This document shows, in pieces, positions 1,701 to 15,232 of a stretch of 64,000 bases of DNA. The stretch comes from Paenibacillus dendritiformis (lineage in GTDB: Bacteria > Bacillota > Bacilli > Paenibacillales > Paenibacillaceae), in the NCBI RefSeq assembly GCF_945605565.1, contig NZ_OX216966.1, forward strand, positions 6,378,001 to 6,442,000, given 5' to 3'. How positions within the stretch are numbered: position 1 is the first letter of the stretch; each line of letters begins with the position of its first letter. The translations under genes were made by a program, and so were the position numbers. A model generated the notes under the pieces. It did no database searches and was not told the origin of the DNA. It saw only the letters and a list, made by a program, of their open reading frames with translations.

Positions 1701-3332
1701 TTACTTCTTGCTCTCCTGCGGATACATCTGCTCGCGCAAGCCTTTGATCTCGTCGCTGTCGAGGTATTCGTCGAATGTCGTCACCCGGTCGATGATGCCG
1801 TTCGGCGTAATCTCGATGATGCGGTTCGCAATCGTCTGCACGAACTGATGGTCATGCGACGTGAACAGCATCGTGCCGTCGAAGTCGATCAGACCGTTGT
1901 TAAGCGCGGTGATGGACTCCAGATCCAAGTGGTTCGTCGGCTCGTCAAGGATGAGCACGTTCGCGCCCGCCATCATCATTTTCGAGAGCATGCAGCGCAC
2001 CTTCTCGCCCCCGGACAGGACGCTCGCCTTCTTCAGCGCCTCTTCGCCGGAGAAGAGCATGCGGCCCAGGAAGCCGCGCAGGAATGTCTCGTCCTGATCC
2101 TTCGAATATTGGCGCAGCCAATCGACCAGATTGTCTTCCACCCCGTCGAAGTAAGCCGAGTTATCCTTCGGGAAATACGCCTGCGACGTCGTCACGCCCC
2201 AGCTGAACGTGCCGGCATCCGGCTCCAGCTCGCCCATCAAAATCTGGAACAGCGTCGTCTTCGCCAAGCCGTTCGGTCCAACAAGGGCGATCTTGTCGCC
2301 TTTGTTCACGACGAGATGCAGATTATCGAACACCTTCTCGCCCTCAACCGTCATGGTGAGGCCTTCGATCGTGAGCAATTGCTTGCCTGCTTCCCGTTCG
2401 GACTTGAAGTTGATGAACGGATATTTCCGGTTCGACGGACGGATGTCGTCGAGCGTAATCTTGTCGAGCATTTTTTTGCGGGCGGTCGCCTGCTTCGACT
2501 TGGACGCGTTCGCGCTGAAGCGCTGAATGAACGTCTGCAGCTCTTTGATCTTCTCTTCCTTCTTCTTGTTCTGGTCGCGCGCCATCTTCAACGCCAGCTG
2601 ACTCGACTCGTACCAGAAGTCGTAGTTCCCCGCATACAGCTGAATCTTGCCGAAGTCGATATCGGCGATATGCGTGCACACCTTGTTCAGGAAGTGACGA
2701 TCGTGGGATACGACGATGACGGTGCCTTCATAATCCATCAGGAAATGCTCCAGCCAGTTGATCGACTCGAGATCCAGATGGTTCGTCGGCTCGTCAAGCA
2801 GCAGGATGTTCGGGCGTCCGAACAGGGCCTGCGCCAGCAGGACGCGGACCTTCTGGTTGCCGTCCAGCTCCGACATTTTGTCGTCGTGGAGATTCTTCGG
2901 AATACCCAGCCCGATAAGCAGCTCGCCCGCATCCGCTTCGGCTTCCCAGCCGTTCAGCTCGGCGAACTCGCCTTCCAGCTCGCCCGCGCGCATGCCGTCC
3001 TCTTCGCTGAAGTCGGCCTTCGCATAGAGCGCATCCTTCTCCTTCATAATGCTGTACAGCCGCTGGTGACCCATAATTACCGTCTCCAGCACCGGAAATT
3101 CATCGTATTCATAATGGTTCTGCTTCAATACGGACATACGGTCTCCCGGAGTAATGTGAACCTCCCCGTTGGTAGGCTCGATTTCGCCGGATAATATTTT
3201 AAGAAATGTCGATTTACCTGCTCCGTTCGCGCCGATAAGACCGTAGCAATTGCCGGGAGTGAACTTGATATTCACATCCTCGAACAAAGGCCGCTTGCCG
3301 TATCGGAGCGTAACGCCGGTTGTACTAATCAT
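1701..3332 (-). CDS. ykpA: ABC-F family ATPase, YkpA/YbiT type
   Basis: 543 residues from the ATG at 3332, which has AAAGGA ten bases upstream; an upstream in-frame start at 3365 lacks a site. Two ABC domains in one chain without membrane segments: first Walker A GANGAGKST, degenerate first signature (ELDGNQKVR), first Walker B LLLDEPTNHLD; linker rich in Lys/Glu (about residues 240-300); second Walker A GPNGLAKTT, signature LSGGEKVR and LILDEPTNHLD. The paired DEPTNHLD motifs mark ABC-F proteins, which act on ribosomes rather than as transporters. The GNQ signature and the ELDG/GLAKTT variants fit the YbiT/YkpA subgroup, thought to adjust translation, rather than antibiotic-resistance ABC-F members. 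It is monocistronic and converges with the phage regulator. Confidence 0.9.
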   Translation of the reverse strand: MISTTGVTLRYGKRPLFEDVNIKFTPGNCYGLIGANGAGKSTFLKILSGEIEPTNGEVHITPGDRMSVLKQNHYEYDEFPVLETVIMGHQRLYSIMKEKDALYAKADFSEEDGMRAGELEGEFAELNGWEAEADAGELLIGLGIPKNLHDDKMSELDGNQKVRVLLAQALFGRPNILLLDEPTNHLDLESINWLEHFLMDYEGTVIVVSHDRHFLNKVCTHIADIDFGKIQLYAGNYDFWYESSQLALKMARDQNKKKEEKIKELQTFIQRFSANASKSKQATARKKMLDKITLDDIRPSNRKYPFINFKSEREAGKQLLTIEGLTMTVEGEKVFDNLHLVVNKGDKIALVGPNGLAKTTLFQILMGELEPDAGTFSWGVTTSQAYFPKDNSAYFDGVEDNLVDWLRQYSKDQDETFLRGFLGRMLFSGEEALKKASVLSGGEKVRCMLSKMMMAGANVLILDEPTNHLDLESITALNNGLIDFDGTMLFTSHDHQFVQTIANRIIEITPNGIIDRVTTFDEYLDSDEIKGLREQMYPQESKK

Positions 3333-3566
3333 GGCATTCCCGTCCTTTAACACGCGATTTATCATTCAAATGACTATTATAGCACAATATGGCCGGTTAT
3401 GCCCGCTTCCTGCGCAATGACGCCCCTGCTATCTGAATCTGACGAATTGTCCCCCGCGTACCTTCGCCGTTCCCGGGATGTTCGGATAAATATGCCAGGG
3501 GGCTGTTTCCGCTGCTTTTTTTCCTATATAATGTAACTATCTGTGAATGAAAGCGAGGGATGTTAT

Positions 3567-3641
3567 ATGGTGAATGCATCTGTATATAACGTTCGGGAGG
3601 AACGAGCAAGCGCCCGGCGCTTCGGCATGATTCAACTCTAA
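3567..3641 (+). CDS. Leader peptide of the RsgA-type GTPase gene (24 aa)
   Basis: A short frame with a good ribosome binding site (GCGAGGGAT before the ATG at 3567) encodes 24 residues ending ARRFGMIQL and stops at 3641, 138 bases before the GTPase start. Codons 9-11 (3591-3599) are one arm of a 9-bp stem with 3671-3679. The arrangement resembles the ribosome-stalling leaders of inducible erm, cat and ABC-F resistance genes in layout, not in sequence. Translation is inferred. Confidence 0.5.
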   Translation: MVNASVYNVREERASARRFGMIQL

Positions 3642-3761
3642 TCCCAAGCGTCGGCCCGCCTGATACCGTGCTCCCGAACTTGCTGCCGCTACGTCGTCTG
3701 TCCCTGCAAGGGACATCGTTGGTACTGCAACGCAAGTTCATTTTATGCGGCATCGACCGCA
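3591..3761 (+). promoter_or_regulatory. Mutually exclusive hairpins in the rsgA-paralogue leader
   Basis: Segment 1 (3591-3599, GTTCGGGAG) is complementary to segment 2 (3671-3679). Segment 2 in turn (3676-3683, GAACTTGC) is complementary to segment 3 (3732-3739, GCAAGTTC). The two pairings share 3676-3679, so they exclude each other. Two further hairpins, TGTCCCT-GCA-AGGGACA at 3699-3715 and TGCGG...CCGCA at 3746-3761, lie between, the latter just before the ribosome binding site (3765-3770). Confidence 0.55.
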
Positions 3762-3779
3762 CCGAAGGAGATATCAGGC

Positions 3780-4955
3780 TTGAACGAAACCGATAGCTAT
3801 TGCAACATCCATAATGACCACAATCAACAACGAAATGAAATAAATGGAGCTGCTGCGGGCAGCGATGCGCTGGCCGGGCTGGCCAGCCTCGGCTGGGACA
3901 GCCGCTGGACCGAGACGTGGAGCCAATGGTTGAACGGGCTCAACGAAGCCGCCCAGCGCCGCTATGCGGGCGGACTGGTGCCGGCGCGCGTCTTGCTCGC
4001 GCACAAGCATCTGTACCGCATCGCCGGCCCGGACGGCAGCGAATGGCTCGCCGACGTATCCGGCCAGGCGCGCAACCAGATGACGGCTCCGGCCGATTGG
4101 CCGGCCGTCGGCGACTGGGTGGCCGCCGCGCCGCGGCCGGCGGAAGGCCGCGCGACGATCGCGGGCGTGCTGCCGCGCCGCAGCCTGTTCGCGCGCAAGG
4201 TCGCCGGCTGCCGCCCGGAGGCGCAGGTCGTGGCGGCGAACGCCGATGTGGCGCTGCTCGTCACGTCGATGACGCTCGACTTCGAGCCGCGCCGGCTGGA
4301 ACGCTACGCCGCGCTTGCCTGGGACAGCGGGGCCGTGCCCTGCATCGTGCTCACGAAGGCCGATGCGGCCGACGATGCTGACACCTTCATCGCGCAGGCC
4401 GAGCTCGCCGCGCCGGGCACCGACGTGTTCGCGGTGTCCGCGCTTACCGGCGACGGCCTAGAACGGCTGCGCGCGCGGCTTGCCCCGGGGACGACGGTCG
4501 TGCTCGTCGGCTCGTCCGGCGTCGGCAAGTCGACGCTTGCCAATGCGCTGGCCGGCGGCGAGCGGATGGCGACGCAGGAGGTGCGCGCCGGCGACGGCAA
4601 AGGGCGGCACACGACGACGCACCGCGAGCTGCTGCCGCTCGAAGGCGGGGCGTGGCTCATTGACACGCCCGGCATGCGCGAGGTCGGCATGACCGCCGCC
4701 GACCATGACGGCTTGTCCTCGGCCTTCGAGGACATCGAGGCCTTGGCGGCCGCCTGCCGCTTCCACGACTGCTCGCACAGCCAGGAGCCGGGCTGCGCGG
4801 TGAACGCCGCGATCGCTTCCGGCGAGCTGGAAGCGGGCCGCCTCGCCAGCTACCGCAAGCTGCTGCGCGAAGAGGCCCGGATGCGCCAAGCCGAGGCAGT
4901 CCGCTTGCGGCGCCTGGAGGCGAAGGGCGCAAGGAAGCCGGCCAAGCGCCGCTAA
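3780..4955 (+). CDS. RsgA-type ribosome-associated circularly permuted GTPase (probable paralogue)
   Basis: 391 residues from a TTG at 3780 with GAAGGAG nine bases before it. The order of GTPase motifs is permuted as in RsgA: G4 LTKAD (near residue 190), then G1 GSSGVGKST (about 240), a GDGKGRHTTTHRE switch and G3 DTPGMRE, followed by the zinc motif CRFHDCSHSQEPGC (C-x4-C-x7-C with His). An N-terminal OB-like domain (residues 55-130) fits. Housekeeping RsgA is about 290-300 residues, so the long N- and C-terminal basic extensions (ending ARKPAKRR) and position behind a regulatory leader suggest a second, inducible copy acting in 30S maturation or ribosome rescue. The gene is clearly richer in GC than its neighbours (about 73% in one 60-base stretch counted), a sign of transfer. 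Confidence 0.85.
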   Translation: MNETDSYCNIHNDHNQQRNEINGAAAGSDALAGLASLGWDSRWTETWSQWLNGLNEAAQRRYAGGLVPARVLLAHKHLYRIAGPDGSEWLADVSGQARNQMTAPADWPAVGDWVAAAPRPAEGRATIAGVLPRRSLFARKVAGCRPEAQVVAANADVALLVTSMTLDFEPRRLERYAALAWDSGAVPCIVLTKADAADDADTFIAQAELAAPGTDVFAVSALTGDGLERLRARLAPGTTVVLVGSSGVGKSTLANALAGGERMATQEVRAGDGKGRHTTTHRELLPLEGGAWLIDTPGMREVGMTAADHDGLSSAFEDIEALAAACRFHDCSHSQEPGCAVNAAIASGELEAGRLASYRKLLREEARMRQAEAVRLRRLEAKGARKPAKRR

Positions 4956-15018: not shown

Positions 15019-15203
15019 CGAGATGAGGTAGAGGTTGCGGTTGTTAGTAGTATCTCTGCGGAGGCGGGAAGCGCCGAGGAGGCAGAGAGGAAGGAACCAC
15101 CGCCGAAGTCTGCGGGCATCTTCCGGCACGCGGGCTGGGGCTGTTGCCGAAAGGCGCAGCACTGTCATACGGGATAACCCGTCCCCGTATGGTGCGCTAT
15201 CTT
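15019..15203 (+). ncRNA. Lysine riboswitch (L box)
   Basis: The conserved L-box elements appear in order: GATGAGGTAGAGGTTGCG, TAGTAGTATC, GGAGGCGGGAAGCGCCGAGG, ACCGCCGAAG, GGCTGG...TGTTGCCGAAAGGCGCAGCA, CTGTCATACGGG and the closing GGTGCGCTATC. It sits between a good promoter and the amino-acid permease gene and is followed by a terminator, as in transcription-attenuating lysine riboswitches. It identifies the permease as a lysine transporter. Confidence 0.93.
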
Positions 15204-15232
15204 TTAAGGAAGGGTATGATGGGGACGGTCTA

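Follow-up and report, generated by a model that had tools for sequence, protein, structure and literature searches.

The window, i.e. the whole stretch of 64,000 nucleotides of Paenibacillus dendritiformis DNA that was analysed, belongs to a genome of 6.7 Mb in a single contig and contains a gene for an RsgA-type GTPase paralogue, preceded by an upstream open reading frame (uORF, or leader frame) and by segments capable of alternative pairing. The parts are given below with their positions in the window; ON and OFF denote the proposed states in which the Shine-Dalgarno (SD) sequence of the gene would be freer or closed, respectively.

3527..3532, + strand: TATAAT, probable −10 element of the leader promoter, found by eye (several relatives, L006-L009 among them, have a TATAAT upstream of the uORF)
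3555..3559, + strand: GAGGG, SD of the leader frame, from the sequence
3567..3641, + strand: uORF of 24 codons plus stop (ATG at 3567, TAA at 3639-3641), MVNASVYNVREERASARRFGMIQL
3591..3599, + strand: segment 1, GTTCGGGAG, within the uORF, inverted repeat with segment 2; its GGGAG is SD-like
3614..3622, + strand: inner ON-hairpin helix, 5′ arm, paired with 3646-3654 in the fold of 3586-3685 (−40.9 kcal/mol)
3646..3654, + strand: 3′ arm of the same inner helix, same fold
3658..3665, + strand: segment 2a, GCCTGATA, with 3772-3779 as its partner in the OFF stem
3671..3679, + strand: segment 2, CTCCCGAAC, paired with segment 1 (ON) or, through CTCC at 3671-3674, with GGAG of the gene SD at 3767-3770 (OFF)
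3676..3683, + strand: segment 2b, GAACTTGC, partner of 3732-3739, nested in the OFF stem
3732..3739, + strand: segment 3 of the original prediction, GCAAGTTC, partner of segment 2b
3766..3770, + strand: AGGAG, SD of the RsgA paralogue, sequestered in the modelled OFF stem
3772..3779, + strand: TATCAGGC, 3′ arm of the outer OFF helix, abutting the start codon of the RsgA paralogue
3780..4955, + strand: RsgA-type GTPase paralogue of 391 aa with a TTG start, matching TIGR00157 and PF03193

The original prediction had called the gene product an RsgA paralogue, and this identity was upheld. The protein scored above the cut-offs of TIGR00157 (RsgA/YjeQ/EngC GTPase; 150.8 bits, cut-off 100) and PF03193 (166.1 bits, cut-off 30) and below those of two other RsgA equivalog models, NF008931 (161.7 of 360) and NF008932 (115.9 of 483). 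Alignment with the canonical RsgA of the same genome (30% identity over 297 alignment columns) placed TKAD, GSSGVGKST, DTPGM and C-x4-C-x-H-x5-C in this order, stretches to which we assign the meaning that they have in RsgA proteins, so that circularly permuted G motifs and a C-terminal Cys/His zinc site are both present. Canonical rsgA maps to another site of the genome (G000:C1:2954640), scored 252.5 bits in the family search vs. 152.2 for the paralogue in the window, and is flanked by genes for a PASTA-type protein and a ribulose-phosphate epimerase (neighbours named by eye), which we take to be the mark of canonical rsgA. In a quick tree the two proteins fell on opposite sides of a branch with an SH-aLRT support of 99. 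By score, neighbours and tree, the gene in the window is not the orthologue of canonical rsgA and is non-canonical; its product, with 93% identity to the GTPase of a named relative, may serve in small-subunit (30S) assembly or rescue. The leader is adjoined by a divergent gene for an ABC-F ATPase (1701-3332, − strand; PRK15064, 698.4 bits, below the cut-off of 762; ribo_prot_ABC_F, 384.1 vs. 380). At the Rfam gathering score the sole match of the window was a lysine riboswitch aptamer (15021-15207, + strand, 119.6 bits), and the leader had none.

The −10 call is graded weak, because a sigma-70 consensus scan of 3300-3900 gave no promoter site. The block around the ribosome binding site of the leader frame, GCGAGKGATGTNNTATG, occurs once in the whole genome, without an exact second copy. 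A perfect 7-nt inverted repeat (3562-3568 / 3584-3590) surrounds the ATG of the uORF and could modulate its initiation. No terminator-like site was found on the + strand of the leader. The SD of the gene is AGGAG in the window, and relatives outside the closest group use GGGAG, as found in segment 1.

All the elements named in the original prediction were confirmed: a leader frame of 24 codons (3567-3641), a ribosome binding site (GAGGG, 3555-3559) and three pairing segments. The two pairings it proposed are perfect inverted repeats, namely of segment 1 with segment 2 and of segment 2b (3676-3683) with segment 3; a further perfect repeat that it had missed, of segment 2a (3658-3665) with 3772-3779, lies beside the gene SD and adds a pairing of segment 2a with the SD flank. 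In the fold of 3586-3685, segment 1 was paired with CTCCC of segment 2 together with the inner helix 3614-3622:3646-3654, forming the ON hairpin. In the fold of 3641-3790, segment 2a and CTCC were paired with the SD region (3767-3779) in one long OFF stem, with the segment 2:3 helix inside it. In the models the leader can thus form either of two helices that exclude each other, one closing the gene SD and the other leaving it freer. The stability of the whole leader was unremarkable (z −1.18; 26 of 200 shuffles folded equally well or better). The two-helix arrangement was reached by none of 100 shuffles of the intergenic part of the window's leader (L001), and for clade representatives the numbers per 100 were 1 (L008), 0 (L011), 10 (L012), 14 (L014), 0 (L016), 0 (L019) and 0 (L017), so that it is not significant in L012 or L014 taken alone. 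Since the arrangement was found in 18/18 same-genus orthologues, the observation was judged to be real.

The gene was held by 18 of the 19 same-genus genomes, that of the window included, at E 1e-60 or better. In G007 it is present in two overlapping pieces (L010 and L024; G007:C185), perhaps through a frameshift or an assembly error, and the leader of the upstream piece was used; the start codon of L011 was set by hand. As far as conservation goes, the refuting outcome named in the original prediction was not seen: the frame and the pairings proved to be conserved in relatives. Every one of the 18 leaders has, in the same order, a uORF of 14-33 codons behind a similar ribosome-binding block, GGGAG within the uORF starting 22-31 nt past the A of its ATG, CTCCC after the uORF stop (TTCCC in L008 and L009), and a gene SD containing GGAG. 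Between L024 and the window, the uORF is 97% identical vs. 53% for the 150 nt upstream of the leader. The five core pairs of the 1:2 helix are standard in all 18 leaders, and the four adjoining pairs on one side are standard in 16, 13, 17 and 13 of them, with changes on both sides of pairs; farther out the fixed register fails, being kept in 3/18 on that side and 6-10/18 on the other. A covariance comparison was carried out by swapping segments among eight representatives picked by the analyst, one per clade (40,320 permutations), and both competing helices co-vary: the cognate sum for segments 1:2 was −172.7 kcal/mol vs. a swapped mean of −143.5 (162 permutations as good), and that for segment 2:SD was −128.1 vs. 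−109.0 kcal/mol (53 as good).

Selection on the leader looks to act at the RNA level. YNVREE or NMREIP is encoded in 13/18 same-genus uORFs, and the recurrent VRE/MRE residues overlie segment 1; in L016 and L019 the codons CGG GAG are replaced by TGG GAG, so that the peptide reads WE (R to W) and GGGAG is retained. Among five close relatives, amino-acid changes were seen at codons 2, 4, 5, 19 and 23 and silent changes at codons 2 and 6; codons 7-18 had no change of any kind, and codons 6-8 (VYN) had no amino-acid change. The recurrent VRE was considered as a peptide arrest motif and set aside, because the change of R to W keeps GGGAG and codons 2, 4 and 5 vary. No stalling peptide conserved independently of the RNA pairing was found in the same-genus uORFs.

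The response of the leader to ribosome position was modelled by partition function for the 18 same-genus leaders, with ribosome masks at set positions. As free RNA, P(1:2) exceeded 0.5 in 13/18 leaders, and with a ribosome on the uORF start codon in 12/18 (SD accessibility, 0.01-0.49). Masking of segment 1 by a ribosome gave a P(segment 2:SD) of 0.61-1.00 and an SD accessibility of at most 0.14 in 18/18; with a ribosome at the uORF stop, the first model set-up gave a P(segment 2:SD) of 0.40-1.00. At equilibrium, L008, L009 and L016 were OFF in all modelled states, and free RNA of L005 and L021 was largely in the OFF state. In a second set-up, applied to 16 of the 18 same-genus leaders, the ribosome was placed on the uORF stop and not over segment 1, and the difference in SD accessibility was above 0.1 in 8/16 vs. 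13% of shuffles; SD accessibility in the window's leader was unchanged (0.45 vs. 0.45), and L007 shifted in the opposite direction. The ON/OFF assignment is therefore an inference that faces real counter-evidence, since the stop-position set-up was weaker, the window was unchanged and L007 was reversed. In the second set-up, leaders of other lineages gave 1/20 above 0.1 for Streptomyces, with an opposite lean (mean −0.12 vs. −0.03 for shuffles), 0/3 for Listeria, equal to shuffles, 0/5 for one same-family leader type, and 1/2 for Domibacillus and a Negativicutes locus. A universal polarity of SD-type leaders was thus rejected, as other lineages do not as a rule switch alike, and the claim of polarity is limited to the genus of the window.

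Computation shows the uORF, the two helices, that these are conserved and co-vary, and how SD pairing responds in the models; we consider it fairly probable that the leader is a bistable translational attenuator coupled to the uORF and equipped with a decoy SD, in which the RsgA paralogue is ON when the uORF is untranslated or the ribosome is stalled early. Because GGGAG of segment 1 is SD-like, this segment could act as a decoy for the anti-SD stretch (CTCCC of segment 2), and because it is transcribed earlier, it would, in the proposed mechanism, pair with segment 2 first. Pairing of the anti-SD stretch with the decoy would leave the gene SD freer (ON), and pairing of segment 2 with the real SD would give the OFF state. 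Ribosomes translating through segment 1 would disrupt the decoy pairing, and the freed segment 2 would then close the real SD; if the uORF were untranslated, or a ribosome were held at its start or first few codons, segment 1 would be free to pair with segment 2 and the paralogue would be made. Such a switch would sense that initiation or early elongation is failing and respond with more of a putative small-subunit assembly or rescue GTPase; this reading presumes that the uORF is translated and that such failure is the inducing condition.

In the translational attenuators of ermC and ermB, a leader peptide is followed by alternative helices that sequester the SD, and stalling of a ribosome on that leader makes the SD accessible. 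An attenuator of this classic kind, in which an antibiotic-specific nascent-peptide stall within the uORF would free the gene SD, is unlikely here. The window does have a uORF, a sequestered SD and, upstream of it, a competing helix, the VRE/MRE-type residues recur in 13/18 uORFs, and the Streptomyces leaders lean towards polarity of this kind; against it, those residues coincide with segment 1 and are altered (R to W) in two relatives with GGGAG intact, and, unlike in erm, masking of segment 1 is modelled to close the SD in 18/18. A drug-stalled ribosome on segment 1 should therefore switch the gene off, and induction would need arrest before segment 1, e.g. at initiation. The polarity is probably opposite to that of erm. 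Of the ribosome-stalling logic put forward originally, the leader frame, its ribosome binding site and the competing helices were thus supported, and the classic erm logic was not.

A leader that binds a protein or ligand, e.g. the RsgA paralogue itself in an autoregulatory loop or some other ribosome factor, the uORF being secondary, appears very improbable. It could account for a motif close to GNCGCNNNGTYGT in the loop of the OFF stem (3688-3700; GCCGCTACGTCGT in the window), which is kept in 12 aligned same-genus leaders, for which no pairing partner was found in these leaders and which pairing does not explain; mimicry of rRNA by the motif was considered and set aside, as it presumably has only about five letters in common with the 16S sequence. 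The leader matches no Rfam family at the gathering score, and the ribosome binding site of the uORF and the in-frame GGGAG are among its most conserved parts, both of which argue against such a leader.

Literature text searches, mostly of open texts, gave no description of a leader for any RsgA gene, SCO6149 of Streptomyces coelicolor included, among the matches listed, in line with the original statement that none was known for an RsgA-type GTPase. The leader is probably a uORF-based attenuator in a decoy-SD form and with inverted polarity; for the class of gene that it precedes, those matches gave no report of such control. If the inverted polarity is right, the leader would be opposite to erm and close to that of vmlR of Bacillus subtilis, the uORF of which, according to the accessible part of the report (PMC9226507), senses a ribosome arrested at initiation and which responds, too, to defective ribosome assembly in a cshA deletion. 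Both leaders combine a short uORF, competing RNA structures, SD sequestration and an induction tied to arrest at initiation, the last as proposed here for the window. As far as that part of the report describes it, vmlR differs in having a 3-codon uORF, a terminator, an anti-antiterminator and an ABC-F product, whereas the leader in the window has a decoy SD within a uORF of 24 codons, lacks any terminator-like + strand site and precedes a gene for an RsgA-type GTPase. GGGAG of the same-genus leaders, starting 22-31 nt past the A of the uORF, lies beyond the +16 toeprint edge given there for the vmlR uORF (PMC9226507). A ribosome-acting GTPase behind a short leader frame and alternative RNA structures is also found in hflXr (lmo0762) of Listeria monocytogenes, the leader of which, rli80, is described in the accessible part of its report as having a 14-aa frame and an RLR motif and as acting by transcription attenuation (PMC6310831); unlike this HflX-type case, the window has an RsgA-type product, an SD-based arrangement and no RLR. 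In Streptomyces coelicolor, SCO6149 is a second RsgA gene beside SCO5211, and the accessible part of the report lists them among paralogue pairs of which one member is WblC- and tetracycline-dependent (PMC7157823). Control of SCO6149 is described there as acting at the promoter through WblC, with no leader in that part (PMC7157823). For the antibiotic or stress induction that the original prediction raised as plausible, this listing is the closest evidence.

Leaders of other RsgA genes were then compared with a uORF defined as an ATG frame with an SD of −10 kcal/mol or stronger within 450 nt of the match start. The search of the same family gave a match in 313 of 394 genomes, of which the best RsgA-paralogue matches were used, and 53 leaders outside the genus were taken (12 search matches, 40 picked across genera and the named locus L136). 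A strong-SD uORF was present in 37/53 (4% of shuffles), at least one intrinsic terminator in 46/53 and two in 31/53 (2% and 0% of shuffles). Over a 700-nt stretch with a limit of −9, a uORF was found in 53/53, a setting outside the shuffle null, which exists for the −10/450-nt setting only. A nucleotide motif near GGTCTCNACGG is shared by 12/53 of these uORFs, in one reading frame in seven and in another in five, giving SVSTE-like or RSLRN-like residues; by eye it is complementary to terminator 5′ arms of the CCGCAGGAGACC type. Terminator switching was modelled for 54 leaders, i.e. the 53 and L002, at G000:C1:5988561-5992541 of the window's genome, where a second RsgA paralogue of the non-canonical kind follows a strong-SD uORF (MTRRTRLTTVANKVSLN) and an intrinsic terminator; 45 had a terminator after the uORF with the strongest SD, and nine were skipped. 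The automatic choice of uORF is doubtful in some of the same-family leaders, e.g. L040 and L075. Terminator probability was 0.74-1.00 in 44/45, whatever the ribosome position, which led us to reject terminator switching at equilibrium; in L055 a ribosome at the stop lowered it from 0.85 to 0.42. Pairing between the uORF and the 5′ arm of the terminator was the only enriched feature (19/45 at 5/100 shuffles or fewer; mean z, −1.38), so that a switch acting on these terminators can only be inferred from it.

Orthology of the same-family genes with the gene in the window was not borne out by the tree, which places those that it included with Listeria and Clostridia rows (support 95), and they are termed non-canonical RsgA homologues because 0/13 of those included group with the window's genus; the quick tree held 13 of the 53 rows, the other 40 being left out, with several long branches and one canonical Paenibacillaceae row. 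In the same tree the window's genus joins Actinomycetota rows (support 93). Actinomycetota loci have a strong-SD uORF in 20/24, mostly of the form M(T/A)V...G*, and near-alike leader peptides of 23 residues with very strong SDs, of the type MTVTVTG.ARIQEFIVPTPVVSG, were seen in L102, L103, L105, L110, L111, L113, L118 and others; peptide-level conservation and an erm-like polarity look more likely for these leaders. At L113, the sole Streptomyces locus with its neighbours checked, the upstream frame is AraC-type-like (FtrA model, 314.7 bits, below the cut-off of 425) and the two downstream frames matched nothing. The Listeria homologues L107, L108, L109 and L115 have a conserved upstream frame of 18 codons (MENVKM.NLI..TGVFYL type), which stops 16-17 nt before the gene SD in the three loci modelled. 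Another type of RsgA paralogue in the window's genus (L025, L026 and L027) lies behind closely alike short frames (MAAYMVLVILT, MTTYMVLVVLT and MTAYMVLVVLT) and a long leader. In 19 further loci (Bacillota, one Synergistota and one unclassified, including five further paralogues of the window's genus) a uORF was found in 10, and in 0/15 non-canonical-side loci of Thermodesulfobacteriota, Verrucomicrobiota, Pseudomonadota and Planctomycetota. As controls, canonical rsgA of the same family had a uORF in 0/44 (2/44 at the −9 limit) and terminators in 0/44, and canonical-side loci elsewhere had a uORF in 0/14 within 400 nt, with a strong-SD short frame at −481 in L138. Constant low expression, in which the uORF and folds merely set a level with no switching condition, would agree with the three of 18 leaders modelled as OFF in all states and is hardly to be expected given two mutually exclusive co-varying helices and the recurrence of uORFs and terminators before non-canonical RsgA genes and not before canonical rsgA.

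Beyond the attenuator in the window, we tentatively raise the possibility, on balance somewhat doubtful, that a widespread, inducible response of ribosome assembly or rescue exists in Bacillota and Actinomycetota and is formed by their non-canonical RsgA genes; in it, leader frames would sense failing translation by lineage-specific RNA means, i.e. a decoy-SD switch, tandem terminators or conserved leader peptides, and the window's genus would do so with no stalling peptide, by whether the uORF is translated at all. To our knowledge, the leader-controlled resistance factors known (erm, cat, ABC-F and HflX-type) all have the assembled ribosome or its rRNA as their target. Conserved leader control of a small-subunit assembly GTPase would, if true, tie ribosome assembly to a sensing logic of the resistance type, with inhibitors of initiation or early elongation and assembly defects as the predicted class of inducers, and the decoy-SD design would allow compact sensing without any specific arrest peptide. 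Leader control of this kind, if true, would also suggest why many bacteria keep a second RsgA.
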